NCBI RefSeq assembly: GCF_937770335.1
Contig: NZ_CALJHY010000003.1
Span: 682,001-746,000, forward strand
Direction: 5' to 3'
From: an uncultured Glaciecola sp.
GTDB taxonomy: Bacteria > Pseudomonadota > Gammaproteobacteria > Enterobacterales > Alteromonadaceae
DNA length: 64,000 nt
Shown here: piece by piece, positions 16,866 through 32,941 of the stretch
Numbering within the stretch: the first letter of the stretch is position 1
Layout of the letters: every line of letters starts with the position of its first letter
Notes under the pieces: generated by a model
Database searches by the model: none
Told to the model about the DNA's origin: nothing
What the model saw: the letters and a program-made list of their open reading frames with translations, nothing else
Position numbers and translations under genes: made by a program

Positions 16866-17048
16866 ATGAGCTCAACTTTTCAATAAGAACCATTGTAATC
16901 AATCGATGATAATTATCCGTCCATTCTCGAATATTCAGTCGAAAACACGGATGCAAGATATTTAGCCTAATCTGAAGCTCAACAACATGCTGTTAGTCCC
17001 ACAATAGACGAACAGGTTATAGATACTGCATTGACTAAAATAAACTAA
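16866..17048 (+). pseudogene. Decayed small ORF downstream of the receptor (tentative)
   Basis: An ATG preceded by a good ribosome site (GAGGTGAGGTT) opens a 61-codon frame interrupted by three TAA codons. The rest reads like coding sequence (for example DDNYPSILEYSVENTDARYL and HAVSPTIDEQVIDTALTKIN, in one frame to the final TAA). Several of the stops could arise from CAA or GAA by one change. It does not match a family I recognise. It may be the eroded remains of a small gene once following the receptor, or a chance frame. Confidence 0.35.
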
Positions 17049-17230
17049 TGGCAAAAGATCGGGCTGAACCTGCCTAACTAACATTGAAAATACTCGACAC
17101 TAGAGGATTAAATTTTATCAGTAGAGTATCTGCAACGATAATCGACTAGGGGTTCATACGCGATGTTCATAAATAGATGTCTACCTGTAAAGCCGATGAT
17201 TTTTGGCTGGCATACGTTTTTATTTGGATG
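17049..17230. other. Spacer upstream of the TonB2 operon terminator
   Basis: Non-coding sequence between the decayed ORF and the minus-strand terminator; no signal recognised. Confidence 0.5.
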
Positions 17231-17255
17231 AAAAAAGGCGACTACTAGTCGCCTC
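17231..17255 (-). terminator. Terminator of the TonB2 operon
   Basis: Minus-strand hairpin GGCGACT-AGT-AGTCGCC followed by a run of six Ts, about 40 bp after the TPR gene stop. Confidence 0.9.
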
Positions 17256-17293
17256 ATTAATTTATTTTAAAAAACTAACCAGCCTTCGTGTAA

Positions 17294-18637
17294 CTAAATA
17301 CTATTTAGTTCAGCCTGCAGTTGTTCAGTTTCATTCTTCTCTCTACCAACAAATTGCTTCCACTGCTGGGCAGCCGCTCTGCTTGACTTAAACTCCTCAG
17401 CTTTAGCAAGTTCGTCCAACGCTTTGACAAAGTCTTGTTGATTATAGTGTGCTAGGCCTAATAACATATGAACTGAACCTTGATTTGCTAAGCCACCTTT
17501 CTCAATTGCTTTATTCGATGCAGTAATAGCTTCTTCAAACTTATCACTGTTGTAATAAAGGTGAGCCAGCTGTGCGTCTAGTTCGCCATCTTCTGCTAAT
17601 TCAGCTGCTTCGGTTAATACCGGAATAGCTCTGCCTTGCTCTTTTGCCGAAGTCAGGCAAATAGACAAGAACTTCAGGTTGCGCAGGTTACGTTCTAACA
17701 CTCCATTTTCGATCGCTTGCTCCATCAATGCAGCTGCTTTGAAAGGTGCTTCATGGTAGTAATACAATTGTGCGAAATTAAATATATCGGACGCTGACTC
17801 TACATAACCGAGCTGATAAGCACTTTCCATCATGGCTAACTGACGTTTTTCTTGGCCGAGCTCTCCGTACATACCCGCTAACTGTATCCAGTACTTAGCG
17901 TTATCATAAAGGCGGATCAGCTTAGCCAAAATTTCTTTTACTTTTTCTGGACGCTTCATTTCATAATAAACAGCACGTTGTAAAATCAACCAACCTTCAT
18001 CGGGCAAGTAACCTTCAGCTTCGTGGCCATCAATCGCTAGCTCAATATATCGCGCTGCTTCAGCATAGTTTTTATTTTGATAATGCGCTTGGGCTTTTAA
18101 AACAAAGTTTTTCGGTGGGATAACACCATTATTAAGGGCTTCCCATTGCTCTAACTTCTCAATGCTTTTTTCGAATTTACCTATCGCCATATACAACTGC
18201 GCCAGGGTAAACAAGGTTGTTTGTTCAAATTTTTCAGGAATAGGATCCTGAGCAGCAGCTTGTTCGAAATTTTCGATTGATTTTTCTAACTGTTCATTGT
18301 TGTAATAAATGAACCCATAGAAGTTATACATCATCGATTTCTCATAACCGTTCATCGAACTATCTTTATCTCGTACTTCATCTAATATTTTGATAGCTTC
18401 GGCAACATTCCCCGCATCACCAGCAGTTTGCGCGCGAGATAATTGGTCGTAAACTCGTGAACGTAATGCAGGCACACGGCGCGTTTTACGTTCACTTGGT
18501 TTGATTTCTGAGGGCTCAGTCACATCGGTAGTTTGGGCAAATACCACATTAGTTGCTGATGAAATTATTAGCATAAATCCAAAGGTGAGTATTAAGGATA
18601 ATCCTACGTTTAATAACAAAGAGAGTTTACTTTTCAT
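17294..18637 (-). CDS. TPR protein of the TonB2 cluster
   Basis: Secreted or periplasmic tetratricopeptide protein, the last gene of the cluster. The reading frame is open upstream to 18814, but that part overlaps tonB. AAGGAGACG before ATGATG at 18640/18635 fixes the start, giving about 447 residues. A hydrophobic signal segment (LSLILTFGFMLIISSATNVVFAQ) is followed from about residue 45 by many TPR-like helical pairs (AEAIKILDEV, EKSIENFEQAAAQDP, EKSIEKLEQWEAL, AEAARYIELAI, KFEEAITASNKAIEKGG). Homologous proteins accompany TonB2 systems in Alteromonadales and Vibrio; the exact role is unsettled, probably a scaffold in the periplasm. It lies 10 bp after the tonB stop. Confidence 0.85.
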   Translation of the reverse strand: MKSKLSLLLNVGLSLILTFGFMLIISSATNVVFAQTTDVTEPSEIKPSERKTRRVPALRSRVYDQLSRAQTAGDAGNVAEAIKILDEVRDKDSSMNGYEKSMMYNFYGFIYYNNEQLEKSIENFEQAAAQDPIPEKFEQTTLFTLAQLYMAIGKFEKSIEKLEQWEALNNGVIPPKNFVLKAQAHYQNKNYAEAARYIELAIDGHEAEGYLPDEGWLILQRAVYYEMKRPEKVKEILAKLIRLYDNAKYWIQLAGMYGELGQEKRQLAMMESAYQLGYVESASDIFNFAQLYYYHEAPFKAAALMEQAIENGVLERNLRNLKFLSICLTSAKEQGRAIPVLTEAAELAEDGELDAQLAHLYYNSDKFEEAITASNKAIEKGGLANQGSVHMLLGLAHYNQQDFVKALDELAKAEEFKSSRAAAQQWKQFVGREKNETEQLQAELNSI

Positions 18638-18647
18638 CATCGTCTCC

Positions 18648-19256
18648 TTATCCATCAATCTTGAAGGTAATTCGGTTTTGAACACCAGAAACAGCAGCGG
18701 GTTCACCATTAACAACACGTGGTTTATATTTAAATTTCTTTGCCGCATCCATTGCTGCTTGGTCGAAAATACCTTCTGGATTAGCTTCAACAACAAAGGT
18801 GTCAACCACAGCACCTATTTTGCTTACCGTAAATTCGACAATGACATACCCTTGAATTCCGCGCTGCAGTGCTCGTCTAGGATACACCGGTGTCACTTTA
18901 ACAATCGGTAAATATTCGCCGTCTCCTGAGCCTAAAGCTAAACCACCATCAAGTGAAATATCATTCGACATATCAGCGCCAAAATCTAATGCAGTGCCTT
19001 CACCGTCAGGCGCAGATGAGTCCATTTGCGGAGCCTCCATTTCAGGTGGTGGCGCTTCCGGCTTGGGTGGACGTTTTAATTTATTTTCTTTCTTTTGTAC
19101 ATTTTCTTCTTTTGGCACACGCACAAAATCAAGCACCTTTCCTACCGGTGGTTCAGATAAAGTCTTATCACCGCTGGCTATCAAGGCTTGCATCAAAAAG
19201 AACAAGCTCAGTGTGATAACAGCAGCTAAGACAATAGCAATCAACAGTCTTAGCAT
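18648..19256 (-). CDS. tonB: TonB2-type energy-transducing protein
   Basis: TonB-family protein of 202 residues linking the inner-membrane proton channel to outer-membrane receptors. It has an N-terminal membrane anchor (LRLLIAIVLAAVITLSLFF), a proline-rich periplasmic spacer (KRPPKPEAPPPEMEAPQ), and a C-terminal TonB domain from about residue 115: PVYPRRALQRGIQGYVIVEF, then FDQAAMDAAKKFKYKPRVVNG. It is shorter than E. coli TonB (239), as usual for TonB2. It lies 6 bp after exbD and before the TPR gene, within the six-gene operon. Confidence 0.93.
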   Translation of the reverse strand: MLRLLIAIVLAAVITLSLFFLMQALIASGDKTLSEPPVGKVLDFVRVPKEENVQKKENKLKRPPKPEAPPPEMEAPQMDSSAPDGEGTALDFGADMSNDISLDGGLALGSGDGEYLPIVKVTPVYPRRALQRGIQGYVIVEFTVSKIGAVVDTFVVEANPEGIFDQAAMDAAKKFKYKPRVVNGEPAAVSGVQNRITFKIDG

Positions 19257-19262
19257 GACAAT

Positions 19263-19664
19263 CTACTCTTGTGCAGCGATGGAAACGTCGGATACACCAG
19301 CAGCGCGTGACGCATCCATGACTTTAATTAGAAACTCAGTTGTTGATTTGCGATCAGCTTGAATAACGACCGAACCCTGAGGGTTTTCAGCGTGTAAACG
19401 TTCAACGTTAGCTTGCACAGCACGTACATCAATTCTGCGTTTATTAATCCAAATTTCGTTTTTATCGCTGATACCAATTAAGATATTAGCGCGGTCTTTT
19501 TTGACCGCGGTAGCCGCATCTGGACGGTTAACGTCGATGCCTGACTCTTTTACAAAAGACGCCGTAACAATAAAGAAAATCAACATGATGAATACAACAT
19601 CAAGCATCGGTGTCATATCGATTGTTGCTTCTTCTTCTTCGACTAAGTTTTGTAAATGTTTCAT
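19263..19664 (-). CDS. exbD: ExbD-type biopolymer transport protein
   Basis: Part of the proton-driven ExbB/ExbD motor for TonB; 133 residues. One membrane helix carries the essential aspartate (ATIDMTPMLDVVFIMLIFFI; the Asp in MLDVVF is the proton-carrying residue in the family). The periplasmic ExbD domain follows (INKRRIDVRAVQANVERL, VVIQADRKSTTEFLIKVMDA). AAGGAA precedes the ATG. It lies between exbB and tonB with short gaps. Confidence 0.94.
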   Translation of the reverse strand: MKHLQNLVEEEEATIDMTPMLDVVFIMLIFFIVTASFVKESGIDVNRPDAATAVKKDRANILIGISDKNEIWINKRRIDVRAVQANVERLHAENPQGSVVIQADRKSTTEFLIKVMDASRAAGVSDVSIAAQE

Positions 19665-19688
19665 AAATATTCCTTAACCAACCAACGA

Positions 19689-20216
19689 TTATTCGCTGCG
19701 TTGAAGTTGTAATGCGTCTTCTAAATGCATGCGTTCAGTTTTTGCGGTTCTGGTTAACCAAGTTGACGCAAATACACCCGAAAGAGCACCTACCATGCCT
19801 GCCATTGTAGGAATAGTCGCTTGCGACACCCCTGCAGCCATTGAACGAGCGTTGCCGCCACCTGTCATTGCCATTACGTCAAATACCATAATCATGCCGG
19901 TTACCGTTCCCATTAATCCGAGTAACGGACATAAGGCAACCAAAGCTTGAATAATGGGTAAACTAAAACGCAGTTTTAAACTCACTCGAGAAATCATTGC
20001 TTGACGAATTTGCACTGCATTCCACGATGTGCGTTCCGAGCGTGCATGCCATTGTGCAATAGTATCTTTCATCATCTTTTTGTGATTATTCGTCACATAT
20101 AGAATTCTCTCGAGTATCAATATCCACATTACGAAGATGAGTGCCCCGATAACAAGCAGAATACTTCCGCCAGTTTCGGTAAAATCACGAATTGATTCGA
20201 AGATATCTATAAACAT
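19689..20216 (-). CDS. exbB: ExbB-type proton channel protein (ExbB2)
   Basis: Inner-membrane MotA/TolQ/ExbB-family protein of 175 residues. Three helices: LLVIGALIFVMWILILERIL near the N-terminus, then two in the conserved domain (LPIIQALVALCPLLGLMGTVTGMIMVF and MAGMVGALSGVFASTW). The family motif LLGLMGTVTGMI is intact. It starts 3 bp after the stop of the larger TtpC-like gene, so it is translationally coupled. Together with the TtpC-like protein it supplies two different ExbB-family subunits, as in Vibrio TonB2 systems. Confidence 0.93.
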   Translation of the reverse strand: MFIDIFESIRDFTETGGSILLVIGALIFVMWILILERILYVTNNHKKMMKDTIAQWHARSERTSWNAVQIRQAMISRVSLKLRFSLPIIQALVALCPLLGLMGTVTGMIMVFDVMAMTGGGNARSMAAGVSQATIPTMAGMVGALSGVFASTWLTRTAKTERMHLEDALQLQRSE

Positions 20217-20219
20217 AGT

Positions 20220-21662
20220 TTATGCCTTAGTTTGCGGAACAGCTTGCTTAGCAGACTGCTTTTCAGCTCGCTCTGCAATTACACCAGCAGCTTGTTCTTG
20301 TAGAATCATCACAACATTTTTACTTTGCGTGCTTAACAATGCATAAAGTAGCGTGGTTGGTATCGCCACAACTAAACCTAATACCGTCGTCATTAGTGCC
20401 GATGAAATACCACCAGCCATTATTTTCGGGTCGCCGGTACCGAATAATGTAATTTGTTGGAAAGTCACAATCATACCCGTTACTGTTCCCAGTAGACCAC
20501 CTAATGGTGCTACTACTGAAATCATTTTAACCAAGGTTAAATAACGACCTAGCTTGGGTACTTCACCCAGAATAGCTTCCGTTAAATGAAGTTCTAATGC
20601 TTCTGTATCCACGTTCGGATATTTTTCTTTCACTTTCAAAACTCGACCCAGTGGATTGTTTTCTGACAACTTCTCCGATTTCAATTGGCGATGAACCGAT
20701 GCCGTGATTAGCGATAAAACAACAAACCGCCAGAATGCGACAAGTATGCCAACCGCACCAACAGCAATAATGATATAACCCACTAACTCACCTTGGTGGA
20801 TGCGTTCTTCTAGTGAAGGCGCTTGAATTAACAATCCAAGAATAGAACCACCGGTCGGATCTAAACCGAATGTAACTAATTCACCTGACGAATTTTGTAA
20901 CTCAGCAGTCGAATCAACAAAACGATCTTTGGGTTGACGGATCAGTTCAGAGACCACACCTGTTGCCCCTTGATAATCTAAATATTTACCGTCAGAAACT
21001 AAGGCGAATGGACCAACGCGCACTACTTCTTTGTTAATTTTCTGACCACCTGCTTCAACTACATCAGTATTAAATCGAGTGACTTTGCCTGACTCGGTCA
21101 TTTCACGTTGAATTTCAAACCAAACACGTTCAATTTCAGCAATGGAAGCAAGCTTAGTTGACTTACCCATTGACTGAGCCATCTTGTCCAAGAACTCTGA
21201 ACGCCCTGGGATTTGGGCTGAGATGATAGAGTTAGAAAATTTATTCTTAGTGTCACCAGCAACCTGCTGCAGCACACCAAACAACTCTTTCAATGAACCC
21301 AAACGATTATCTAAAGCACCATTCAAATCAGTGATTTTAAATTCATTTTCTTCAAACTGAGTTTCTAGCTTCTCAGAAGAAGCTAATTGCGCATCACGAA
21401 GTTTGAGCGTATCGCGTAAAATTTGATCTTGTCCTGTGCGCTGCGACATGAAGTCTTGTTCGCGTGACTTGTTTTGCTCTGACTGCGCAAACTTTCCTTC
21501 TTCTAATTGTTTAAGAAGAGAGTCTAAGTCTAGCGCTTTATCTGACTGCGCCTGCACAGAGAATGATAAGACGATAGCCGCTGTTGCTGCTAAAAATGAT
21601 TTTGCAAATGTCATTGAAGTGCCATTTTTACAACTGCTTTTACAAAAAAATGCTTTCATCAT
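20220..21662 (-). CDS. ttpC: TtpC-like MotA/TolQ/ExbB-family protein with periplasmic domain
   Basis: Large ExbB-family subunit of 480 residues. A signal sequence (SFLAATAAIVLSFSVQAQS) is followed by a coiled-coil region (about 45-150) and a periplasmic domain (to about 290). One helix lies at 295-317, and the MotA/TolQ/ExbB domain at about 340-470 includes PLGGLLGTVTGMIVTF and GGISSALMTTVLGLVVAIP. TtpC was described in Vibrio as a required component of TonB2 for certain iron sources; here it is recognised by architecture and gene order. The start ATGATG at 21662/21657 follows AAGGGA. A later ATG (MTFAKSF) gives a shorter signal peptide but has no ribosome site. Confidence 0.88.
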   Translation of the reverse strand: MMKAFFCKSSCKNGTSMTFAKSFLAATAAIVLSFSVQAQSDKALDLDSLLKQLEEGKFAQSEQNKSREQDFMSQRTGQDQILRDTLKLRDAQLASSEKLETQFEENEFKITDLNGALDNRLGSLKELFGVLQQVAGDTKNKFSNSIISAQIPGRSEFLDKMAQSMGKSTKLASIAEIERVWFEIQREMTESGKVTRFNTDVVEAGGQKINKEVVRVGPFALVSDGKYLDYQGATGVVSELIRQPKDRFVDSTAELQNSSGELVTFGLDPTGGSILGLLIQAPSLEERIHQGELVGYIIIAVGAVGILVAFWRFVVLSLITASVHRQLKSEKLSENNPLGRVLKVKEKYPNVDTEALELHLTEAILGEVPKLGRYLTLVKMISVVAPLGGLLGTVTGMIVTFQQITLFGTGDPKIMAGGISSALMTTVLGLVVAIPTTLLYALLSTQSKNVVMILQEQAAGVIAERAEKQSAKQAVPQTKA

Positions 21663-21669
21663 CGTTCCC

Positions 21670-22437
21670 TTAATCCGTAATCGCGACTGGAACCAATAAT
21701 AGGTCCGGTGCTAGTTGTTTCTTGGCGATACGTAAACCTTTGGATATTTGGTTTTTGTAGCTTGAATCAAGTTCTTCCCACTGCTGCGTTTGTTTGTTCC
21801 ATGCACCTTGATAGCTGCCATCGCGAGTTTGGTAAATCAGTGACGTACGGCCAATGCGCAGAAATTCCACTGAACGTTCTTGACCGTCAATGTCTTTTAA
21901 GCCTGGATAAGCTTCGATGGTTTTTCCATAATCCATTTCAACTTGATAAGCTTCCATAACACGACGAAATTTTTCAGAAGACGAAACGTCAGCTCTATCC
22001 ATCATACTTTGTAAGTCTAGGATACGGTTGCCGCGTTCTTCTGCCAGAAAAGGAAGGTCTAATGCGACGAACTGAGACAAACCGGCAATCATCTTTAACA
22101 TCAATGGCGTAATTTGGCGTTCTATTACACTGACTTCATCGATGGACTGGTTCAGATCTAACATCTCTTGGTCTTGGTTAGCTATTTGACGACGCAGTTG
22201 TCCGTTATAAATCTCTAAGCCTTCTATTTCTTTGCTTAAGGCTTTGAACTGTTGAAGTTTGCTATCAATTTGATCTGTGATGCTATTAATTTTAGTTTGC
22301 GACTTAGCCGCAGACTCATTAATTTCAGTTGCCTTTTTAGCTGCTGGGTCAAGGTACTTATCTTCTTGTGCAAGAACAGTGGTACTAAGTAGCACTGACG
22401 TTACTGCCGTCGCTATTAACGTTTGAAAAACCTTCAT
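21670..22437 (-). CDS. DUF3450-family periplasmic coiled-coil protein
   Basis: First gene of the TonB2 operon; 255 residues. A signal peptide ends at VLAQE. A long coiled coil (about residues 30-115: heptad-like INSITDQIDSKLQQFKALSK) is followed by a globular part with the family stretch YGKTIEAYPGLKDIDGQERS and VEFLRIGRTSLIYQTRDG. DUF3450 proteins sit at the head of TonB2 clusters across Alteromonadales and Vibrio; function is not firmly known, probably a periplasmic partner of TtpC. A Pho-box-like promoter lies about 90 bp upstream. Confidence 0.88.
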   Translation of the reverse strand: MKVFQTLIATAVTSVLLSTTVLAQEDKYLDPAAKKATEINESAAKSQTKINSITDQIDSKLQQFKALSKEIEGLEIYNGQLRRQIANQDQEMLDLNQSIDEVSVIERQITPLMLKMIAGLSQFVALDLPFLAEERGNRILDLQSMMDRADVSSSEKFRRVMEAYQVEMDYGKTIEAYPGLKDIDGQERSVEFLRIGRTSLIYQTRDGSYQGAWNKQTQQWEELDSSYKNQISKGLRIAKKQLAPDLLLVPVAITD

Positions 22438-22513
22438 ATACGCATCCTAAGTTCAATATAAATAGGCTAGGTGTTAGTAAAATAGTACTAATACCTAACC
22501 AAAATCTGCCCAA

Positions 22514-22547
22514 AGGATAGAGGTGTTCTATTACAGATTTATTACAT
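22514..22547 (-). promoter_or_regulatory. Candidate Pho-box promoter of the TonB2 operon
   Basis: Minus strand: ATGTAAT-AAAT-CTGTAAT at 22547-22530, against the E. coli Pho-box CTGTCAT-AWAW-CTGTCAY (5/7 and 6/7 matches, AT linker correct). The -10-like TATCCT lies at 22519-22514, exactly 10 nt after the box, the spacing found at phoA. Compared by eye, not scored with a matrix. Confidence 0.6.
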
Positions 22548-22587
22548 AACTGTCATATTTGATAAAGTCTTGCCACATCTAGAAATA

Positions 22588-22632
22588 AAAAAGCCGCACG
22601 ATGTTTGCAGAACGCCTACATAGTGCAGCTTT
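22588..22632 (-). terminator. Terminator of the receptor gene
   Basis: On the minus strand AAGCTGCACTATG pairs with CATCGTGCGGCTT (with mismatch and G-T) across a 19-nt loop, followed by Ts. It lies about 38 bp after the receptor stop and separates it from the TonB2 operon promoter. Confidence 0.75.
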
Positions 22633-22669
22633 TGAGCATTAAATGAGTTTTATGAACTTTTTGTGTCAG

Positions 22670-25342
22670 TTAAAAATTATACTTCACTGACAAACTCAAT
22701 TTACGGCCCTTAGTTTCAGAACGTAACAACACATTTTCAAATTCTAGCTTTTTAGATTCGCCCAATATGTTTTGAATTTTGAATGTCATTGTCGTGTTGA
22801 AGTTAGGATAAAATTTATAAACGGTATCAAACGAGTGAAATGGCTGTTCATAACTATCGTCAAAACCATCGATGCCAGGTATTAAAATACGTTCACCAAA
22901 CACGTTATAAACTAACGATAATGAATGTTCGCCATTGTCGGAATCAAAACCACTTTGCAAGTTCATCACATATTGCGAGTGACCTGTGAGCCGGCGCTCT
23001 AAGTTAGTTACCGCCGCTGACACTCCTGTTTGATCAACAATACTCTGACGATCCAACAGAATTTCAGAATCGCTCAGGGTTAAATTGCCTGACACAAATA
23101 TATTGTCCCAAACACCTTTACCGATGAAGTCTAAGCCTTGCAAAAATTCCACTTCGATACCGTACAATTCACCGGTTTCGGCATTAGCAATACGAATCAA
23201 AGGCGGCCCATCTTGTGCTGGCGATTGCACCGACTCAATTGGTGAGTCCATATCTTTATAGAACAAGCCCACTGACAGGTTGTTACCTGCTTCGCGATAC
23301 CATTCCCAGCGCAAATCATAGTTAAGGATTGATGTGGTGTTGATACCGGGTGTACCCGCAATTGGGAATTCCGTTAGCGGATCAATAAACGTCGACGATG
23401 ATACTTCTCGCAAATCAGGACGAACGACCGTTTGCCCTATACTTGCTCTAAACTGCATACTTTCATCTTTAATATATGTCATCGCCAAAGCAGGATAAAA
23501 ATCATCTTCTTGGAAGGCTAATTGAGCTCGGTCAGCTTCATCCGGTAAATCGAACTGATTGGTTCTTGGGTCGAATGGAGCAACAACTTGACGAAAATCT
23601 TCAAAACGCACTCCACCGCTGAAGCGCCATTTATTTTTAAAGAAAAAATCACCTTCAATATAATAAGCATTAACTTTTTGGCCCGCTGCATAGTCATCAC
23701 CAGCGATGGTTGTGTCACGAATAATAGCCGGACCTGCACCTTCGAAATTGGTTTTATCCGCTAGTACTTGATCACTGAAGATACTAAAGTAAGAACCACC
23801 GACTAATAAGTTTGAGTCGGTAAATGCACGTGTATTAATGTCAAAACGACGATTCTCAGCAGTACGTGTCTTGGTCAGGAAATCAGCACCAAATTTAAAC
23901 TCCATTTCCCAGTTTGCGATTGAGTAAGGCATAGTTACGTTGTAACCCGTATTCTCCAACCTATCATGTAACGTTTGAAATGAATAACGCGCAGCAGTAG
24001 TTGAATTATTCAATGCAATTTCATTACTCGCATCAAAAAAATCATCCGTGTTTTCGTCACTTATGACGAAGCGTGACTCGAAGTTTCCTGGTGCATTTCG
24101 TAATGAGCGCCCTAAGCTGTATTTCCAGTCAATACCCATAAAATTGAATTTCGGGAAAGTGTGCATACCGCGAAGTTGATTAGTAAACATTTTACGTTCT
24201 TCGTATTCAACTGCAACATCACGAATACGCAAGCCTTCAGCTTGACTTAAGTTTTCAGTATTACCAAATTTTTCACTAATTTCATCGCGCGTATCATTCA
24301 AAATAATCAGACTGTAATCAACCTTATGATTACGGTTGTAATCAATACCTAAATTGACCATGTTTGACCATTTAATACTAGTCTCAGTAACAGAAATATC
24401 GTCAAAGAAACGCACTATGTTTATCGAGTCTTGGACCCGATCCGCTTGCTGTAACTCATACTCTTGAGAAACGTTTGTTTCACTGCCATAACTGCTTGTA
24501 ATTAAAAAGCCATAACGCCACTTATCATCAATGTCAAAACTGTTGCCTAATGAAAAGTTGAAGCCCATGTTCGGACCGATGCTTTTCAGGAAGGGGTCAT
24601 AGTCACGATTGACATCGCGCAATAACGAAAGTGCAACATCTTGATCAAGTGAATCTAAAAATTCTTTATTTTGCCAGCGAGACGCAATAGAGGCTGGGAC
24701 CGCACGAGTGCCATCATCACGACCTTGCCAATCTGTACCTCCGCCATTATAAGCAAGCGCATCTCCAGAGTTTTCGCTGTTATAACCGAGGCTACCTGAT
24801 ACGTTGAAGATAAACTGCGTGGGGATTGTTTTTAAGCGAATATTAACGTTACCACCACCAAAAGAAGCCGGCATTGAAGGCGAAAATGACTTCTGTACTG
24901 ACAAACTTTCAATAATGTCTGCTGGAAATAAATCCAATGGAATAACGTTCCTAGTTGGATCGGGGCTAGGAACAGCTGCACCATTTAATTGCGTACTTGA
25001 ATACCTTTCACCTAGGCCACGAACATAAATGAACTTGCCATCAACCAAAGTCAATCCCGTTACACGGCGAAGCGCCGATGCAGCGTCACTGTCACCGGTT
25101 CTTGAAATTTGTTCAGAACCCAATATATCGGCAACAAACGCTTGGTTTTTACGTTCTTCCAAAACAGCTGTTGCTGTTCCTTTTAATCTTGTTCCGGTGG
25201 CAACAACTTCTTCAATTGCCTCTTCTTCATCTGCTTGCTGAGCCATTGCTGATTGCACAAAAAAGGGCTGAGTTAGCATAAGTGAAGCCAACACGGCAAG
25301 TGTCACTTGTTTGTTCGGAAACCTGTTTGCAGGTTGATTCAT
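22670..25342 (-). CDS. TonB-dependent receptor of the Pho-linked cluster
   Basis: Outer-membrane active transporter of 890 residues. The signal peptide ends SAMAQQ. A TonB-box-like EEVVATGTRLKG is followed by a plug with SAASALRRVTGL-type motif (DAASALRRVTGLTLVDGKF), FIYVRGLGERYSSTQLNG and SFGGGNVNIRLKT. A barrel of about 700 residues ends in RKLSLSVKYNF with a terminal Phe. It lies between a duplicated beta-helix lipoprotein and the TonB2 operon. No promoter-like Pho site was found directly before it, so it is probably co-transcribed with the lipoprotein 145 bp upstream. The substrate is unknown; context suggests a phosphorus source (inference). Confidence 0.93.
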   Translation of the reverse strand: MNQPANRFPNKQVTLAVLASLMLTQPFFVQSAMAQQADEEEAIEEVVATGTRLKGTATAVLEERKNQAFVADILGSEQISRTGDSDAASALRRVTGLTLVDGKFIYVRGLGERYSSTQLNGAAVPSPDPTRNVIPLDLFPADIIESLSVQKSFSPSMPASFGGGNVNIRLKTIPTQFIFNVSGSLGYNSENSGDALAYNGGGTDWQGRDDGTRAVPASIASRWQNKEFLDSLDQDVALSLLRDVNRDYDPFLKSIGPNMGFNFSLGNSFDIDDKWRYGFLITSSYGSETNVSQEYELQQADRVQDSINIVRFFDDISVTETSIKWSNMVNLGIDYNRNHKVDYSLIILNDTRDEISEKFGNTENLSQAEGLRIRDVAVEYEERKMFTNQLRGMHTFPKFNFMGIDWKYSLGRSLRNAPGNFESRFVISDENTDDFFDASNEIALNNSTTAARYSFQTLHDRLENTGYNVTMPYSIANWEMEFKFGADFLTKTRTAENRRFDINTRAFTDSNLLVGGSYFSIFSDQVLADKTNFEGAGPAIIRDTTIAGDDYAAGQKVNAYYIEGDFFFKNKWRFSGGVRFEDFRQVVAPFDPRTNQFDLPDEADRAQLAFQEDDFYPALAMTYIKDESMQFRASIGQTVVRPDLREVSSSTFIDPLTEFPIAGTPGINTTSILNYDLRWEWYREAGNNLSVGLFYKDMDSPIESVQSPAQDGPPLIRIANAETGELYGIEVEFLQGLDFIGKGVWDNIFVSGNLTLSDSEILLDRQSIVDQTGVSAAVTNLERRLTGHSQYVMNLQSGFDSDNGEHSLSLVYNVFGERILIPGIDGFDDSYEQPFHSFDTVYKFYPNFNTTMTFKIQNILGESKKLEFENVLLRSETKGRKLSLSVKYNF

Positions 25343-25487
25343 TTTAACCTCATTAGCTGCTAATTTTTACAATACTTAAGTTAAGCAACATCTAAAACTG
25401 ACTATTTGAAACGCAAGTGCGCTACCATTTAAGTAACGCACTCGTATTAATTTACTGTCGAGCTAAGCGCTCAAACCGTTGCAGTCG

Positions 25488-28268
25488 TTATAGACCTACA
25501 GTCCAGTTTGCAGTCCAGTTATTGTCTGCATCTTTAACCGCGCCAATAAAATCAACAGGAGTAAAGAAGCTATCTAAGGTTGTTACGTCCGTAGGAGCTG
25601 TTGCATCAATTGTAAAGATTCCGTTCAGCACTGCCGCTTGGTCTGCTGCAATCGAGTTATCAGTTCGACCTAAGAACCATGCTTCTTGATCGAAGGTGCC
25701 GGAATTTTTAATGTTTTCAGCACAAGCCAGTACCGAAGACTGGAATACTAACTGTGTTGCACTCGTTCCGTTCATGTTTTCTTCCAGTGTGGTATCACCG
25801 TCGGATAAATCAGATTCGAAACATTCGCCCATTCCTGCAGGACCGGTTACCACAAAGTTGTATAATTGTGCGTTAGTTTGGTCACGCAACAATACACCTT
25901 CAGAATCAGCATCAGCAGTATCGAACGTATTTCCAATAATAGTCATGTTAGCAACAGTTGGGTTTGAGAATGCAGTGCCTTCACCGCCATCACCGTCACC
26001 TTCAATACCGCGGTTCGCGTCAGAATTATCATCTGCATGCTTTACCAGAACAAATTGCATTTTGCCTTTAAAGCCGTTATCCCAATCAACTGAGTCATCT
26101 TGAATACCCGTTAGAACTAAGTACTTAGCATTAACCGCACCACCGAAGAACTCAACACCGTCATCTGCATTTTTATGCACTTGCAGATATTCAACAACCG
26201 TACCTGAACCTACTGCACCAAACGTAATACCATTCAGTTCATTATCAGGGGCAACTTCGAAGCCACCATGCATGACGCGAACATAGCGCAACGTTCCTGA
26301 ATTATCAGTATCATCAGAACCACCAAATACAGCACCTTCTTGAACGCCTTCTACTTGCAGTGAACAAGGTGTGCCGTCTTGTGGACATTTTGTAGAGTTA
26401 CCGTTACCTAAGATAACTACACCACCCCACTGGCCTGCTGTTCCATTTGCTAAACCCGCAGTTACGCCATTAGAAACGTGCTGACGAGAGGTAAACGTAA
26501 TTGGTAACGTTGCAGTGCCGCTCGCTTCGATTTTAGAACCTCGGCTAACGACTAAATAATCCGCACCCGAACTGCCGTAAACAACCACACCAGGATCAAT
26601 TGTCAATGTCGCGCTGTCAGTATTATCACCACCGACGAACACAGCTTCAGATAATGCATAATGATTACCTGTTGTTAAGCGCAGGTCAGTTGTAATACGA
26701 CCTGATACTTGGCATGTATTCGTCGTTCCATCTACGGCTGGAATTGTCGTTGTTCCTGCTGGGCAGCCTGATGCCGAAGCAACTACACCGACTTCACCAC
26801 CACCAAAACCGAAGGCCCAACCCTGACGCCAATCGGTATCACCAATTGCGCCAACAAACGTATTGGTTTCAAAGAATGAGTCTAAGTTAGCAGCATTGCC
26901 ACCGGACGTACGTAACGAACTTTCAGCTGTTAAAGTACCATCACTGTTAATCCCAACATTAGCGCGGTCAGCAAAAGCAATGATGCTATTTCCTTGTTGC
27001 TCTGTGCCAAACCAATTATTGAGATCAACATCCGTTGCGCCGAAGTTAAATGCTTCTGCGCAAGCAATGACTGAATTCGTAATAGTAATATCGCCGTCTG
27101 CCAAGTTACCTTGAACGGTTTCATCACTGTCCATTTCTAAACATTCGCCCATGCCTTCTGGGCCAGTGATTAACATGTTGATAATGTTTGCACCTGTTTG
27201 GTCACGAAGTAGAACACCTTCAGAGTCTGCATCTGCGGTATCAAAGCTGTTACCAATAATCGTAATGTTAGCAATTTTTGGACGTGAGAACGGAGTTCCG
27301 TCACCGCCATCGCCGTCACCTTCAATACCACGGTTAGCGTCAGAACCATCAGCTGCATGTTCAACGTAAACGTATTGAAGTTTACCATCGTAACCGTTAT
27401 CCCAGTCTACTGAATCGTCTTGAATTGACGTTAAGACGAGGTGCTTAGCATTAACAGAACCACCGAAAAATTCAACGCCGTCATCAGCGTTTGCATGAAC
27501 TTGTAAATAGTCAATCTCTGTACCTGAACCAACACCACCAAAAGTGATGCCGTTTAATTCGTTATCCGGTGCAATTTCGAAGCCTGCATATTTAACAACA
27601 ACATATTTGAGTGAACCTGAATTATCGGCATCGTTCGCACCACCAAATACCGCGCCGGTTTCTGCGCCTTCTACTTGTAGTGAACAATCAGTTCCGTCTG
27701 TTGGACATTTTGTTGTTGGTGCGTTACCAAGAATGATCATACCGCCCCATTGGCCAGCTTGAACTTCGTTACCGATAACGTCATTGTATGAAGTAAAAAT
27801 AATTGGGGAAGTAGCTGTTCCTTGCGCTTCAACTTTTGAATCACGACTGATAACTAAATAATCAGCACCGCGGCTACCAAAGATGATTGTGCCTGGTTCA
27901 ATTTCAAGTGTAACGCTGTTTGCTTTATCGTTACCAACAAAAACAGGACCCGTTAATGCCCAGACGGTGTCGTTCGTTAATGTAATAACACCATTCACTG
28001 CTTCTGCATCAGTAAGACGACCGGTAAGCTGTCTAACTTCAATAGTCTGACCCAGCGCTGTAGATACTTGACCACTTAAAAAAACATCTACTGACCCGGG
28101 CTTGGTGTCATCAGGGGGAGTAACAGGGGTACCGCTACCGCCGGTTTCATTATTTACAACACTGTTATCAACGATATCGCCTTCAGAGATGTTGATATCT
28201 CCGCCACATGCGCCAAGTGCTAAAGTAGCTGCGATTGCAGAAACTCTAAAAAGTCCATTCAAGTTCAT
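25488..28268 (-). CDS. Large lipoprotein with a tandemly duplicated beta-helix-like domain
   Basis: 926 residues from ATG 28268, which has GGAG upstream. The signal ends at a lipobox (ATLALGAC-GG), so it is anchored in the outer or inner membrane. After a Thr/Pro-rich linker come two copies of one domain of about 400 residues (about 85-490 and 525-926). Both contain SRGADYLVISR- or SSGADYLVVSR-like, GQWGGMIILGN, CSLQVEG, APDNELNGITFG, NADDGVEFFGG, IQDDSVDWDNG, DANRGIEGDGDGG and DTADADSEGVLLRDQT segments. The acidic Asp/Gly repeats look calcium-binding and the strand-turn pattern looks like a right-handed parallel beta-helix (inference). The function is unknown; it precedes a TonB receptor, so substrate capture or processing is plausible. 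Confidence 0.85.
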   Translation of the reverse strand: MNLNGLFRVSAIAATLALGACGGDINISEGDIVDNSVVNNETGGSGTPVTPPDDTKPGSVDVFLSGQVSTALGQTIEVRQLTGRLTDAEAVNGVITLTNDTVWALTGPVFVGNDKANSVTLEIEPGTIIFGSRGADYLVISRDSKVEAQGTATSPIIFTSYNDVIGNEVQAGQWGGMIILGNAPTTKCPTDGTDCSLQVEGAETGAVFGGANDADNSGSLKYVVVKYAGFEIAPDNELNGITFGGVGSGTEIDYLQVHANADDGVEFFGGSVNAKHLVLTSIQDDSVDWDNGYDGKLQYVYVEHAADGSDANRGIEGDGDGGDGTPFSRPKIANITIIGNSFDTADADSEGVLLRDQTGANIINMLITGPEGMGECLEMDSDETVQGNLADGDITITNSVIACAEAFNFGATDVDLNNWFGTEQQGNSIIAFADRANVGINSDGTLTAESSLRTSGGNAANLDSFFETNTFVGAIGDTDWRQGWAFGFGGGEVGVVASASGCPAGTTTIPAVDGTTNTCQVSGRITTDLRLTTGNHYALSEAVFVGGDNTDSATLTIDPGVVVYGSSGADYLVVSRGSKIEASGTATLPITFTSRQHVSNGVTAGLANGTAGQWGGVVILGNGNSTKCPQDGTPCSLQVEGVQEGAVFGGSDDTDNSGTLRYVRVMHGGFEVAPDNELNGITFGAVGSGTVVEYLQVHKNADDGVEFFGGAVNAKYLVLTGIQDDSVDWDNGFKGKMQFVLVKHADDNSDANRGIEGDGDGGEGTAFSNPTVANMTIIGNTFDTADADSEGVLLRDQTNAQLYNFVVTGPAGMGECFESDLSDGDTTLEENMNGTSATQLVFQSSVLACAENIKNSGTFDQEAWFLGRTDNSIAADQAAVLNGIFTIDATAPTDVTTLDSFFTPVDFIGAVKDADNNWTANWTVGL

Positions 28269-28321
28269 TGTGTTCTCCAAAACGTCAAAAATAATAAATT
28301 ATTACTAAAAATTTTTAAAGC

Positions 28322-28355
28322 AGAGTACTTGATGTAAATGACAGTTATGTTACAC
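28322..28355 (-). promoter_or_regulatory. Candidate Pho-box promoter of the lipoprotein-receptor unit
   Basis: Minus strand: GTGTAAC-ATAA-CTGTCAT at 28355-28338; the second 7-mer is a perfect Pho half-site and the first matches 4/7. The -10-like TACTCT lies at 28327-28322, exactly 10 nt after the box. Compared by eye. Confidence 0.55.
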
Positions 28356-28460
28356 GGTAGTATTGTCACAAAAGTTTAATACAAGGAGGGGTATTTTGGT
28401 TTAAGTTTAATAGCGATTACGTTACTTCTTGAGAACCGAGAACCCAGTAGCTATCGGTAA

Positions 28461-29618
28461 TTAACGTAAGATCGAAACTAATTGTTTATCTCTAAGATCT
28501 TTACTAATTGAATAGTAGCCATTTTCATTCACCATATTTTGCCCTTCATCAGACAAAATAAAGGTGAGGAATGCACGCTCCAAAACAGGTAACTGAGTAT
28601 TCGGCGGTTTGTTCACCACAATGTATAAGTACCGAGAAAACGGATATTTACCTGAGGTAATATTGTCGTTATTTGGTTCTGCATAAAATATTTCGCCTTG
28701 CCTTTTGCTACCAATAGCAAGTGCTTTAACATTGTCATCTAGATGCCCAAGCGCTGCATAACCGAGCCCTCCAACAGACGACGCTATAGATAATACAACC
28801 GACGACGAACCGGGTAATTCATTAACGGTAGCCTTGAAATCGCCCTCACACAAAGCTTGTTTCTTAAATAAATCGTAAGTACCTGATGCAGAATTGCGGC
28901 CATACAAAAGTACTTCCCGATTTTCACCAAACTTGGTCACTCCAATATCAGACCAAGTCTCTATTTTATTGGCTGAACCGCAAAATCTAGTGACCGAAAA
29001 AAGTGCGTCAACTTGCTTGAGCGTTAACGATTGTAACGGGTTATTTTTCTCAACATAAATAGCGATCGCATCCACTGCAACAATAAGAGTGGTCGGTGGA
29101 TAACCATATTTTTGCGTAAAACGGCTGATTTCACCTGCTGTCATTGCTCGTGACATAGGACCTATTGTCGCGGTACCTTGAGTCAGTGCTTGCGGTGCCG
29201 TTGCTGAACCTGATGCTTGAATTTGAAATTTAACATGCGGATATACTGTTTTGAATCGTTCAGACCATAGCGAAATTAACGTCGCTAAAGTATCTGAACC
29301 TACGGATGATATACTTCCATAAACCCCAGCCAGACTCTCTGTTGTTGTTAAGGAAGCTAAGTCTGTTGGAATAGTCTCTGGCAACTCAATAGCGTGCTCT
29401 TTGTTTGATAACGTTTCTATTTGAGACGGGATTGTTGATAAAGGTTGAACTGGTGTTTGTTCCAATATTTGAGCATTCACATATCGCGGGAACAATATAA
29501 ATAAGCCGCAGAATATACAGATTATTCTAGAAGAAAAGTGGCACAAAACATTCTTAGCGGCATTTGGGCTAATGTTATTTTTTGCAGATATGACTTTTGG
29601 TAATAACACGTGGCTCAC
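28461..29618 (-). CDS. PstS-like phosphate-binding protein coupled to phoR
   Basis: Periplasmic substrate-binding protein of the PstS type, 385 residues. A hydrophobic signal segment lies at about 31-49 (ending YVNAQ), and a linker of about 50 residues precedes the binding fold. The phosphate-loop motifs are SSVGSDTLATLISLWSERF, QASGSATAPQAL and LYGRNSASGTYDLFK. The domain ends LTFILSDEGQNMV. The start overlaps the phoR stop (ATGA), so it is translated with the sensor. No pstC, pstA, pstB or phoU gene follows. It may feed a transporter encoded elsewhere or tune PhoR signalling (inference). Binding loops look intact. Confidence 0.87.
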   Translation of the reverse strand: MSHVLLPKVISAKNNISPNAAKNVLCHFSSRIICIFCGLFILFPRYVNAQILEQTPVQPLSTIPSQIETLSNKEHAIELPETIPTDLASLTTTESLAGVYGSISSVGSDTLATLISLWSERFKTVYPHVKFQIQASGSATAPQALTQGTATIGPMSRAMTAGEISRFTQKYGYPPTTLIVAVDAIAIYVEKNNPLQSLTLKQVDALFSVTRFCGSANKIETWSDIGVTKFGENREVLLYGRNSASGTYDLFKKQALCEGDFKATVNELPGSSSVVLSIASSVGGLGYAALGHLDDNVKALAIGSKRQGEIFYAEPNNDNITSGKYPFSRYLYIVVNKPPNTQLPVLERAFLTFILSDEGQNMVNENGYYSISKDLRDKQLVSILR

Positions 29619-30928
29619 GAGTCCAAGCTATGTTCATAGAGAAGTTCTGGAGGTAGTATAAATGAAAATTCACTTCCCTTTCCAATTTTACTCTCAATAT
29701 TTAAATACGAGTTGTGATGATTAAGTACGTGCTTAACAATAGATAGTCCCAAACCTGAGCCACCCGTTTTTCGCGAACGTGCTTTATCCACTCGATAAAA
29801 ACGCTCGGTGAGTCTGCGCAGATGTTTCTCTTCAATACCATCACCGTTATCGACAACAGCAAAATAAGCGCCGGAGCCTCGTCTTTTCCATATTATTTTT
29901 ATATTGCCACCTGGAGGCGTGTAGTAGATAGCGTTGAAGATTAGGTTTGAACAAGCACTGCGCATTTCCGTTTCAACACCAAATATGCGCAATTCATCAT
30001 CTACCTTTAAAGAAATCTTATGTTGCTTTTCTTGATTTAATGTTTGAGCTTCTGTTTCAACTTGCTTCAACATTGCCGTCATATCGATGGTATTTTCGTA
30101 TATTCTCTCTGCCGAAGCTTCAATTCGAGACAAAATAAGCAAGTCTTCAATGAGTGCCTGCATGCGCTTAGTTTGCGTTCCCATTTCCGCCATGGCTTTA
30201 TTCACAAAAGGATTTTTTTCGTCACTATCAACGCTAAGTACTTCAAGATAGCCGTTGATAACCGTCAGTGGAGTGCGTAATTCATGAGATACATTAGCCA
30301 CGAAGTCTTTGCGCATCTCTTCTAACTGAGACACTCGAGAAACATCTCTTACTATCAATAGTAATTGATCTTCACCGTAAGCCATTATCCTATACTCAAA
30401 GGTTTTGTTCGGGTTTGTTGGTGCTGGAATTTCAATAGGGTATTGATATTCACCAGAGTGAAAATAGTTAATGAATTTTGGATGGCGGATCAGGTTGTCG
30501 ATCCTACGTCCAGAATCATCAGGCCACTTTAACCCCATCTCAATTCTTGCATGACGATTACACCAAACGATTTTGGCTTCTTTATCCACGACCACAACAG
30601 CATCCGGAAGTGCTTCAGACCCCTCACGAAAACGCTTTACCAACTGACCTAAGTTACGCCGTTTATTTCTGTTGCGGCGTTGTAAATAATAAATACCTTC
30701 ATAAACATGCTCCCAAACACCTGGCGCTGTCGGCGGAGACATTTTTCGACTTTCCCATATCCACTTGGTTAACCTATATAAGTGTAGATAGTTGAAAATA
30801 ATGAGGGACACGGTAGCGATCAACAACACTAAAGTGACATTTCCAAGATAAGTGCCAAGCAAGATAAGTAAGGCTAGGTAAATAAATAGCCTTAGTATAC
30901 TTTTAGTCCATGAACGCGGGTAATACAT
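29615..30928 (-). CDS. phoR: Phosphate-regulon sensor histidine kinase PhoR
   Basis: Membrane histidine kinase of 437 residues. Two close membrane segments lie at about 11-46, then a linker and a PAS domain (about 95-200: ALPDAVVVVDKEAKIVWCN, GRRIDNLIRHPKF). The HisKA domain has the phospho-acceptor His215 in ANVSHELRTPLTV. The ATP-binding domain has the N-box FNAIYYTPPG, DNGDGI (360-365) and GGSGLGLSIVKH. Length and order equal E. coli PhoR (431). The ATG abuts the phoB stop (TAAATG), and the gene overlaps the PstS-like gene by 4 bp. Confidence 0.97.
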   Translation of the reverse strand: MYYPRSWTKSILRLFIYLALLILLGTYLGNVTLVLLIATVSLIIFNYLHLYRLTKWIWESRKMSPPTAPGVWEHVYEGIYYLQRRNRNKRRNLGQLVKRFREGSEALPDAVVVVDKEAKIVWCNRHARIEMGLKWPDDSGRRIDNLIRHPKFINYFHSGEYQYPIEIPAPTNPNKTFEYRIMAYGEDQLLLIVRDVSRVSQLEEMRKDFVANVSHELRTPLTVINGYLEVLSVDSDEKNPFVNKAMAEMGTQTKRMQALIEDLLILSRIEASAERIYENTIDMTAMLKQVETEAQTLNQEKQHKISLKVDDELRIFGVETEMRSACSNLIFNAIYYTPPGGNIKIIWKRRGSGAYFAVVDNGDGIEEKHLRRLTERFYRVDKARSRKTGGSGLGLSIVKHVLNHHNSYLNIESKIGKGSEFSFILPPELLYEHSLDS

Positions 30929-31618
30929 TTAAATCTTATTTGAGAAGCGATATCCTGCGCCACGGACAGTCTGGATCATCGCATCGTGACCGTGTTGTGA
31001 TAACGCGATGCGAAGACGACGAATATGCACATCAACCGTGCGGTCTTCAACATAAACGTTAGTACCCCAAACATTATCGAGCAATAACTCACGGCTATAT
31101 ACACGCTCTGAGTGAGTCATGAAGAAATGTAATAATTTAAATTCTGTCGGTCCCATCTCCAAAGGATCGCCATTAGCGGTGACCCGATGCGAAATAGGTT
31201 CTAATATCAGACCGTTAAATTCGATTGGTTCTTCTTTTGAAGTGGGTGTCACCCGGCGCATAACTGCTTTAATACGAGCGACTAACTCTTTTGGCGAAAA
31301 CGGTTTGGTAACATAGTCATCAGCACCGGCTTCTAAGCCTCTAATTTTATCATCCTCTTCGCCACGAGCAGTAAGCATGATCACAGGAATGTCTCGTGTA
31401 AATTCGTGTTGTTTCAGCTTTTTTGCCAATTGAACACCGCTACCACCTGGCAGCATCCAGTCAAGAAGTATTAAATCAGGGTAAGGCTCTTTAACTTTTT
31501 CCAATGCGACGTCGAAGTCTTCCGCTTCAACAACATCAAAACCAGCTTGTTCTAAAACAAAAGAAAGCATCTCCCTGATGGGCGCTTCGTCTTCAACTAA
31601 CAAAATTGTTCGAGACAT
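30929..31618 (-). CDS. phoB: Phosphate-regulon response regulator PhoB
   Basis: OmpR-family transcription factor. Receiver with acidic pocket VEDE, phospho-acceptor Asp53 in LILLDWML, Thr83 and Lys105 (VTKPF), the same numbers as E. coli PhoB when the protein starts at ATG 31618 (229 residues). A winged-helix domain follows ([40 protein letters not shown]). An upstream in-frame ATG at 31636 would add MSRVKS but has no ribosome site. The operon phoB-phoR-PstS-like gene reads leftwards; a Pho-box-like site just upstream fits autoregulation. Confidence 0.97.
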
Positions 31619-31651
31619 GGATTTAACTCGTGACATAATTAATTGACAACC

Positions 31652-31685
31652 ATTATTAAAGTATTCTGTGACAGTTTTATTAAAT
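31652..31685 (-). promoter_or_regulatory. Candidate Pho-box promoter of phoB
   Basis: Minus strand: ATTTAAT-AAAA-CTGTCAC at 31685-31668 (4/7 and 6/7 half-site matches, AT-only linker), with the -10-like AATAAT at 31657-31652, exactly 10 nt downstream. Compared by eye. Confidence 0.6.
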
Positions 31686-31815
31686 AAGTAAAATAATTAG
31701 TAAAATCACTAAATTAAGCGAAAAATAATCAACAAAGCATCAAATAGCCACAATATTTTAGCGTTTAGTTGCGTCGCCACCAAAATTTATGACATCTCAT
31801 ACTACCCCACCTTAA

Positions 31816-31837
31816 CAATAAGGACACACCTATTTGA
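31816..31837 (+). repeat. AATAAGGACACACCT repeat, half copy
   Basis: Contains CAATAAGGACACACCTATTTGA without the matching right arm. It lies about 35 bp from the perfect palindrome of the same family in the phoB-rdgC spacer. Confidence 0.85.
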
Positions 31838-31871
31838 GCTCTCATTGGTCTGCTTAATTCAAATCCACAAT

Positions 31872-31931
31872 AACCACTCAATAAGGACACACCTGTTTGA
31901 ACGCAAACAGGTGTGTCCTTATTGAGTGGTT
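31872..31931. repeat. AATAAGGACACACCT repeat, perfect palindrome
   Basis: Two perfectly complementary 28-bp arms (31872-31899 and 31904-31931) around a 4-nt loop AACG, with the family core AATAAGGACACACCT in the left arm. As RNA or single-stranded DNA it would form a very stable hairpin. It resembles REP-like palindromes moved by Y1 transposases; no such gene is in the window. Confidence 0.9.
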
Positions 31932-32010
31932 GCGGAAATTCATTTTGACCATCGGCGTCCAGATTGGTAGAGTGCGTTCACTTTTTTAATCGGTAATTAT
32001 TAGAATAAAT

Positions 32011-32907: not shown

Positions 32908-32915
32908 CACTAAAG

Positions 32916-32941
32916 GAAGGCTGATCAATCGAACAGCCTTC
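32916..32941 (+). terminator. Possible terminator after rdgC
   Basis: Stem GAAGGCTG / CAGCCTTC with a 10-nt loop, 9 bp after the stop codon; no following T-run, so it may be weak or only a stabilising hairpin. Confidence 0.45.

Follow-up and report, generated by a model that had tools for sequence, protein, structure and literature searches.

The window analysed here is a stretch of 64,000 nucleotides from the genome (3.85 Mb, 18 contigs) of an uncultured Glaciecola sp. of the Alteromonadaceae (contig NZ_CALJHY010000003.1, positions 682,001 to 746,000), and its minus strand carries, between positions 17294 and 31636, an island of phoB, phoR, a pstS-like gene and genes for a lipoprotein, a TonB-dependent receptor (TBDR) and a TonB2-type motor (TtpB(DUF3450)-TtpC-ExbB-ExbD-TonB-TPR). 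We regard it as likely that this island is an outer-membrane acquisition system for phosphate starvation; it represents, marked by Pho boxes, a variant of an outer-membrane module known from phosphate starvation, and probably has its own TonB2 motor. Comparison of sequences supports this reading through the gene identities, the recurrence of Pho boxes, the pairing of lipoprotein and receptor, the distinct DUF3450 clade that co-occurs with the lipoprotein, and the absence of a pstS gene beside the pstCAB-phoU genes. Judged by neighbourhood and description, the lipoprotein-receptor pair is of a known kind, since it matches the phosphate-starvation systems ElpS/CC0171 of Caulobacter and FI with its TonB-dependent transporter (TBDT) of Flavobacterium. 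What appears to be novel is the combination of this pair with a motor lineage whose proposed dedication to phosphorus is well supported by the comparison. The phosphate-controlled motor is probably the new part of the island: in the literature searched, mainly papers free of subscription, we found no description of such a TonB2 set under the control of PhoB.

Genes and promoters of the island

Re-reading of the sequence and scans with Pfam and NCBIfam confirmed the single minus-strand block and the gene content proposed in an initial annotation, with all genes at the positions given there except for two starts. The TPR gene was moved from 18814 to about 18640, downstream of tonB, and the lipoprotein gene most likely begins at an ATG at 28268 instead of a TTG at 28280. 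The genes and the predicted Pho boxes are as follows.

31667 to 31684, minus strand: Pho box upstream of phoB, TTTAATAAAACTGTCACA (18.6 bits, second in the window with the 32-site matrix, third with 58 sites)
30929 to 31636, minus strand: phoB, response regulator (TIGR02154, 364.5 bits, cut-off 296.2)
29615 to 30928, minus strand: phoR, sensor kinase (NF008235, 547 bits, cut-off 390; TIGR02966, 453.6, cut-off 334.2)
28461 to 29618, minus strand: pstS-like gene, periplasmic phosphate-binding protein (TIGR02136, 219.9 bits, passing the cut-off of 206.6)
28337 to 28354, minus strand: Pho box upstream of the lipoprotein gene, TGTAACATAACTGTCATT (18.7 bits, first in the window with 32 and with 58 sites)
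25488 to 28268, minus strand: ElpS-like lipoprotein of 926 amino acids with two beta-helix-like units (lipobox by eye, AlphaFold, fold matches)
22670 to 25342, minus strand: TBDR, neighbour of the lipoprotein (PF07715, plug, and PF00593, barrel, over cut-off)
22529 to 22546, minus strand: Pho box upstream of the DUF3450 gene, TGTAATAAATCTGTAATA (18.2 bits, third in the window with 32 sites, second with 58)
21670 to 22437, minus strand: TtpB-like DUF3450 protein of the phosphorus-type clade (PF11932, 300.1 bits; tree)
20220 to 21662, minus strand: TtpC-like MotA/TolQ/ExbB protein of 480 amino acids (PF01618 over the Pfam cut-off)
19689 to 20216, minus strand: ExbB (PF01618 over the Pfam cut-off)
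19263 to 19664, minus strand: ExbD (PF02472 over the Pfam cut-off)
18648 to 19256, minus strand: TonB (PF03544 over the Pfam cut-off)
17294 to 18640, minus strand: TPR protein, TtpD-like (TPR Pfam models over cut-off; likely start about 18640)

The phoB and phoR genes abut, and the open reading frame of pstS, whose start is uncertain, shares 4 bases with phoR. PhoB stayed below the cut-off of NF007546 (405.9 versus 471), as did the receptor with its nearest NCBIfam model, TIGR01782 (185 versus 310 bits); an AlphaFold model and Foldseek gave a TBDR fold for the latter. All six TonB2 (Ttp) components, namely DUF3450, TtpC, ExbB, ExbD, TonB and TPR, stand together in one cluster.

The Pho boxes were scored with a PhoB matrix built from 32 published chromatin immunoprecipitation sequencing sites of E. 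coli (PMC10294691) and with a second matrix of 58 printed sites. On both strands of the window, the first matrix placed the three island boxes on top (18.7, 18.6 and 18.2 bits; next site 16.5), and the second ranked the same three highest (17.9, 17.7 and 17.4 bits; next 16.8), each on the strand of its gene. The three Pho-box-like promoters noticed in the initial annotation thus exceed chance expectation. Under a cruder consensus score, which is based on a half-site and counts a promoter as positive when at most one of 60 shuffles scores as high, the phoB box alone was not significant (p 0.07). The same three scores were applied to promoters of relatives, with the following numbers of positives (consensus score; 32-site matrix, p ≤ 0.02; 58-site matrix).

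Lipoprotein: 83/136; 90/133; 90/133
DUF3450: 15/20; 15/20; 16/20
phoB: 9/15; 13/15; 15/15
gspC: 16/35; 14/32; 14/32
TBDR, control: 3/140; 1/137; 2/137
TtpC, control: 0/22; 1/22; 2/22
pstS, control: 1/11; 1/11; 1/11
rdgC-like, control: 1/10; 2/10; 2/10

The matrix scans leave out promoters with identical last 150 bases, and locus L043, in which the first DUF3450 copy is cut off, was excluded from the consensus count for that gene. Among 201 half-sites, consisting of CTGTCAT and 200 permutations of its letters, CTGTCAT ranked first in the four positive promoter sets, and 110th and 139th in the TBDR and TtpC control promoters, respectively. Fur boxes showed no enrichment in the promoters examined. 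Of the phosphorus-type DUF3450 promoters, 0/21 stood out for Fur and 0/20 reached 13 of 19 matches; the four of 15 phoB promoters that did reach 13/19 may owe this to A/T-richness. One Fur-like match of 14/19 lies near the second TonB2 set of the genome; we do not claim iron control of that set, because none of 21 paralogue DUF3450 promoters stood out. The comparison therefore supports the view of the initial annotation that the island is linked to phosphorus rather than to iron, since Pho boxes recur in relatives and Fur boxes are not enriched.

The lipoprotein had been described as a duplicated beta-helix protein. Duplication is right: over 433 residues, the two halves share 55% identity. 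A beta-helix is supported because the AlphaFold model shows repeats rich in strands and is locally reliable (mean predicted local distance difference test, pLDDT, 85.6), with a modest predicted template-modelling score (pTM 0.60), and because the 50 fold matches listed are mostly of families that we take to be beta-helices, although all have template-modelling (TM) scores below 0.3 and 7-12% identity. The N-terminus reads LGAC ahead of GGDI, a lipobox by eye. No match was obtained in Pfam or NCBIfam at an E-value of 0.001, and instead of a SusD-type protein the model resembles a beta-helix. The protein is strongly acidic (isoelectric point 4.05, net charge about -88), and direct binding of phosphate polyanions is therefore not favoured; invariant Asp/Glu positions are present. 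An enzymatic role was considered and set aside: the matches to a glucanase, polysaccharide lyases, epimerases and tailspikes lie in the same low range of TM-score and identity, the PDB sequences gave no match at an E-value of 1, and both searches bear on the fold and not on an activity.

The pair and the motor in relatives

To describe the neighbourhood in relatives, we used an order-level set of 40 loci from 46 receptor-matching genomes (six genomes, among them that of the window, were left out), a phylum sample of 20 loci outside the order, drawn from 51 genomes with a lipoprotein match, and 80 named loci, which are the best 80 of at least 555 matches and come partly from the same genomes as the phylum sample (e.g. 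L110/L129, L117/L135, L118/L174). A gene counts as lying in the flanks when found anywhere in the stretch fetched around the pair, which is shorter at some contig ends. The lipoprotein and a TBDR of one family are same-strand neighbours in 40/40 order-level loci, 20/20 of the phylum sample and 79/80 named loci, that is, in 139 of 140 loci of these overlapping samples, the sole miss being at a contig end. The lipoprotein gene precedes the TBDR gene in 137 of 139 pairs; the order is reversed in L108 and L120. Close homologues in named loci of Alteromonadaceae were found in Aestuariibacter halophilus (L193; 74% identity in lipoprotein and receptor) and Catenovulum maritimum (L176). Judged by length, relatives have lipoproteins of one unit (533-559 amino acids; L066, L070, L073), two units (about 930) or three units (1361-1392; L051-L054). 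Overall, the lipoprotein was found in 51 of 398 sampled genomes of the phylum and in 64 of 79 of the family.

Conservation of the wider neighbourhood, on which the initial annotation had made its proposal depend, was partial: the pair occurs nearly everywhere we looked, but the DUF3450 set and phoB do not always accompany it. The DUF3450 set was found in the flanks of 17/40 order-level loci, 0/20 of the phylum sample and 3/80 named loci, and phoB (at least 50% identity) in 12/40, 0/20 and 3/80, one of these last three (L169, 53%) being doubtful. The 12 order-level loci with phoB span six genera and show both co-directional and divergent gene orders. In L120, of the phylum sample, a TonB/ExbD/TtpC-like set and a TPR protein lie upstream of the pair, with no DUF3450 hit. 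GspD was present in the flanks of 0/40, 10/20 and 29/80 loci, respectively, some of these flanks being short, and no type II secretion gene was found among the neighbours of the island pair in the window. Pairs with secretion genes were recovered from Xanthomonas (L126, L183) and Sphingomonadales (e.g. L134, L139), and the order lipoprotein-TBDR-gspC from Caulobacteraceae (Phenylobacterium L124, Brevundimonas L128 and L129).

The strongest support for a motor dedicated to phosphorus, a well-supported proposal on the genomic comparison, comes from the DUF3450 clade, its co-occurrence with the lipoprotein and the Pho boxes. The genome has two DUF3450 genes, each followed by TtpC-, ExbB-, ExbD-, TonB- and TPR-like genes (ExbD and TonB of the second set were identified by reading the sequence). 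The DUF3450 tree, with 64 rows, has a branch of 100/100 support that separates 30 TBDR-adjacent rows from 23 second copies, and 11 unlabelled rows group with the former; the tree places the motor lineage by one of its six genes. The rows were the best DUF3450 matches and those in the loci studied, together with 20 paralogues hand-picked from the second copies; L263 and L272 were assigned to the paralogues after a first tree had been viewed. That first tree contained one incomplete row and opposed the receptor-neighbour label to all others, and the second tree drops this row, adds the 20 paralogues and keeps the 11 unlabelled rows out of the contrast. A copy at least 49% identical to the DUF3450 protein of the window occurs in 59 of 79 family genomes, all 59 of which have the lipoprotein, compared to 5 of the remaining 20 (Fisher p 2.9e-12, shared ancestry ignored). 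We chose the 49% line ourselves, and five copies at 40-45% lie outside the tree. In each of two genera, both genes are present in one species and absent from another (G641/G678, G689/G653); in genus g282 (G643, G681) and in G052, the lipoprotein is present and the phosphorus-type DUF3450 absent. Pho boxes precede 33 of 41 phosphorus-type DUF3450 genes (15/20 and 18/21 further cases, with promoter windows of slightly unequal length), including 8 of 10 that have no receptor beside them, defined as no tblastn hit within 1.5 kb (the gap in G682 is about 2 kb). Ahead of the second copies they were found in 0/21 (consensus score), 1/21 (32-site matrix) and 0/21 (58-site matrix) cases. Taken together, the comparison speaks for the private TonB2 motor of the initial annotation, with a DUF3450 clade that is set apart from the second copy and tracks the lipoprotein.

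The core phosphate uptake genes lie elsewhere in the genome. The run pstC-pstA-pstB-phoU (L239, 6681-12038) has no pstS beside it; ppk and ppx adjoin it, and a PiT-type transporter follows downstream (PstB and Ppx were read from sequence, PstA from gene order together with a match to a generic permease). The island PstS is probably that of the main transporter, because no other PBP_like_2 match was found in the genome (six candidates scored), although a divergent PstS might have escaped the model. Upstream of a choice-of-anchor I lipoprotein-like gene (PF22494; L239 2272-4104, own genome C3 at about 586-588 kb) lies a site that strongly resembles a Pho box, TCGTCATGAAACTGTCAT; the gene is perhaps another Pho gene.

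Several further observations concern the surroundings of the pair. PhoU (Pfam; L041 2260-2976) lies within a few kb of it in three loci (L041, L175, L188), and a cluster of ABC-transporter ATPases, perhaps pstB, is near it in seven; this is a further link to phosphate. In 14 of 140 loci, the surroundings of the lipoprotein include a gene of about 270-300 amino acids (a single BLAST cluster, with L052 added by eye), which encodes a 2OG-Fe(II) oxygenase (PF13640) in Xanthomonas L183. Genes of this kind stand upstream of the lipoprotein in L038, L040, L041, L042, L049, L050 and L052, in several cases between phoR/pstS and the lipoprotein, and none was found in the window's genome at an E-value of 1e-10; that its product modifies one of the exported proteins is a guess. 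In the window, rdgC is the divergent neighbour of the island, and the rdgC-phoB interval holds an inverted repeat of 28 bases, free of mismatches and with a loop of 4 bases (31872-31931), and a 37-base direct repeat of 78% identity (31816-31915). Neither repeat matched Rfam, and an Rfam scan of 17000-33000 gave nothing above threshold. A second TBDR of 975 amino acids with plug and barrel (13772-16699, plus strand) is convergent to the island.

Proposed function and alternatives

Under the proposed mechanism, low phosphate would cause PhoR and PhoB to turn on three putative transcription units: phoB-phoR-pstS, the lipoprotein with its receptor, and the genes of the TonB2-type motor. The ElpS-like lipoprotein, presumably at the cell surface by analogy with ElpS, would partner the receptor and either capture a phosphorus-bearing ligand or hold a surface phosphatase beside it. 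The receptor would import the ligand, powered by TtpB, TtpC, ExbB, ExbD, TonB and TtpD, a paralogue lineage kept for phosphorus apart from the second TonB2 set of the genome. Phosphate freed in the periplasm would then pass through the island PstS to the PstCAB encoded elsewhere. PhoB control, contact between lipoprotein and receptor, use of this motor by the receptor, the nature of the ligand and the hand-over to PstS are what we infer from the arrangement. The initial annotation had suggested an organic or polymeric cargo, which the present data do not establish: the acidity of the lipoprotein disfavours binding of a polyanion, and ElpS has been tied to phosphatase activity and is not reported to take part in import (PMC2996285). 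Nucleic acid, phytate or phosphoglycan as cargo is a guess. A scan of one protein each from ten of the 34 recurring flank clusters listed revealed no phosphatase, nuclease or phytase; one of the ten proteins was the PhoU mentioned above.

Several observations weigh against this proposal. With the 32-site matrix, a significant box was absent from 43 of the 133 lipoprotein promoters and from 5 of the 20 DUF3450 promoters, and the pstC promoter of the genome has none either, unlike the textbook Pho regulon. In Caulobacter, cc0171 is reported to be constitutive and its deletion left ElpS production on; no effect on uptake was seen, and phosphatase activity was unchanged upon deletion of elpS (PMC2996285). 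The likeness to ElpS and FI rests on neighbourhood, description and related Caulobacteraceae rather than on direct sequence comparison. Receptor adjacency has switched several times inside the DUF3450 clade (9 changes of the label in the first tree). The lipoprotein occurs without this motor type in five family genomes (two of them, G670 and G687, by weak match), the DUF3450 set flanks only 17 of 40 order-level pairs, and no such set turned up in the flanks of alphaproteobacterial and Xanthomonas loci. Evidently, then, another TonB is able to serve the receptor, and the motor may in turn serve other Pho-controlled receptors.

An alternative that we consider unlikely is that the pair imports nothing, the lipoprotein being a phosphatase activator or scaffold or the receptor a sensor, and that the motor serves other receptors. 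This would fit the raised phosphatase activity in the supernatant upon overproduction of ElpS, which itself had no such activity and for which uptake was not demonstrated (PMC2996285), and the frequent presence of type II secretion genes, not of a TonB set, beside alphaproteobacterial and Xanthomonas pairs (GspD in 10/20 and 29/80 loci). Import is favoured by the 139 of 140 loci of the overlapping samples in which a TBDR of one family neighbours the lipoprotein, by the plug and barrel of the island receptor, and by the co-occurrence of the lipoprotein with the DUF3450 type of the motor. It is rather improbable that the cargo is phosphate itself, for instance bound to calcium or another metal, instead of an organic or polymeric compound. 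The acidic lipoprotein with its invariant Asp/Glu residues could hold metal ions, and pstS lies within the phoBR block; phosphate is, however, small enough for porins, and the usual ligands of TBDRs are large or scarce. That an ordinary iron TonB2 cluster stands beside phoBR by chance is highly improbable, even though the six identical component types serve iron in Vibrio vulnificus (PMC6957404). We set this explanation aside on the evidence of the promoters, with recurring Pho boxes and no Fur-box enrichment, of the DUF3450 tree, which separates the clade from the other TonB2 set of the genome, and of the co-occurrence with the lipoprotein.

Returning to phosphorus acquisition, we are inclined to think that in Alteromonadaceae and some neighbours a whole TonB2-type motor of six parts is reserved for phosphorus, as an old PhoB-controlled paralogue whose gains and losses go along with those of the lipoprotein and the receptor. 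Energisation by TonB would in that case depend on the nutrient, phosphorus having one motor and all other substrates a second one, unlike the usual description of TonB. Phosphorus limits growth in many waters, and to our knowledge the crossing of the outer membrane by large or scarce phosphorus compounds is poorly known. If our reading is right, the island brings a full candidate route together in one place, from switch, surface lipoprotein and gate to motor and periplasmic binder, and the cell, with a Pho box at just one of its two paralogous TonB2 sets, would allow a clean genetic test.

Relation to known systems

The closest counterparts, ElpS/CC0171 and the Flavobacterium pair, had not been mentioned in the initial annotation. 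ElpS (CC0170) is a phosphate-starvation surface lipoprotein of Caulobacter crescentus encoded beside the TBDR CC0171 and a type II secretion cluster; it is induced by low phosphate and not by low iron, and the same report names relatives in Shewanella as well as neighbourhoods with secretion genes in Xanthomonas, Sphingomonas and Hyphomonas (PMC2996285). As in Caulobacter, lipoprotein and TBDR are adjacent in the island and linked to phosphate starvation, here through the Pho boxes. In contrast to ElpS, which has about 50 kDa and adjoins type II secretion genes, the island lipoprotein has two units, with phoBR-pstS upstream and the TonB2 set downstream. Of the gspC promoters near the pair in relatives (L104-L203), 16/35 (consensus score) and 14/32 (both matrices) bear Pho boxes, in line with the PhoB regulon of Caulobacter, which includes the type II secretion system and several TBDRs (PMC11208175).

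In Flavobacterium johnsoniae, FI, encoded next to a TBDT, was the top induced transcript and the most abundant exoprotein under phosphate depletion, and the authors give 31-36% identity to the Caulobacter lipoprotein (PMC8115612). The island resembles both PUSIII, with a phosphate-regulated lipoprotein beside a TBDT (FI, Fjoh_3856; TBDT, Fjoh_3857), and PUSIV, in which the related lipoprotein FII is part of a phoBR cluster; it differs in that F. johnsoniae belongs to another phylum, has FI and FII in two clusters and is described, in the accessible text, without mention of a TonB2 set (PMC8115612). A phosphate/phoB experiment in Bacteroides fragilis, in which BF4130 (PstS-like) and BF4134 (ExbB-like) changed expression, is a lead only (PMC3547664). 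With PusCD and SusCD the island shares the combination of a TBDR and an outer-membrane lipoprotein, PusCD being phosphate-regulated (PMC8115612), whereas the island lipoprotein does not match SusD and is beta-helix-like in its model. The motor is built like TonB2 of Vibrio vulnificus (TtpB2/TtpC2/TtpD2), in which DUF3450 and TPR proteins are added to TtpC-ExbB-ExbD-TonB; the Vibrio system is iron-regulated and serves iron (PMC6957404), whereas the island set has Pho boxes and no Fur-box signal. If our reading is right, the island joins what has been reported separately for Caulobacter and for Flavobacterium in a single, widespread module.

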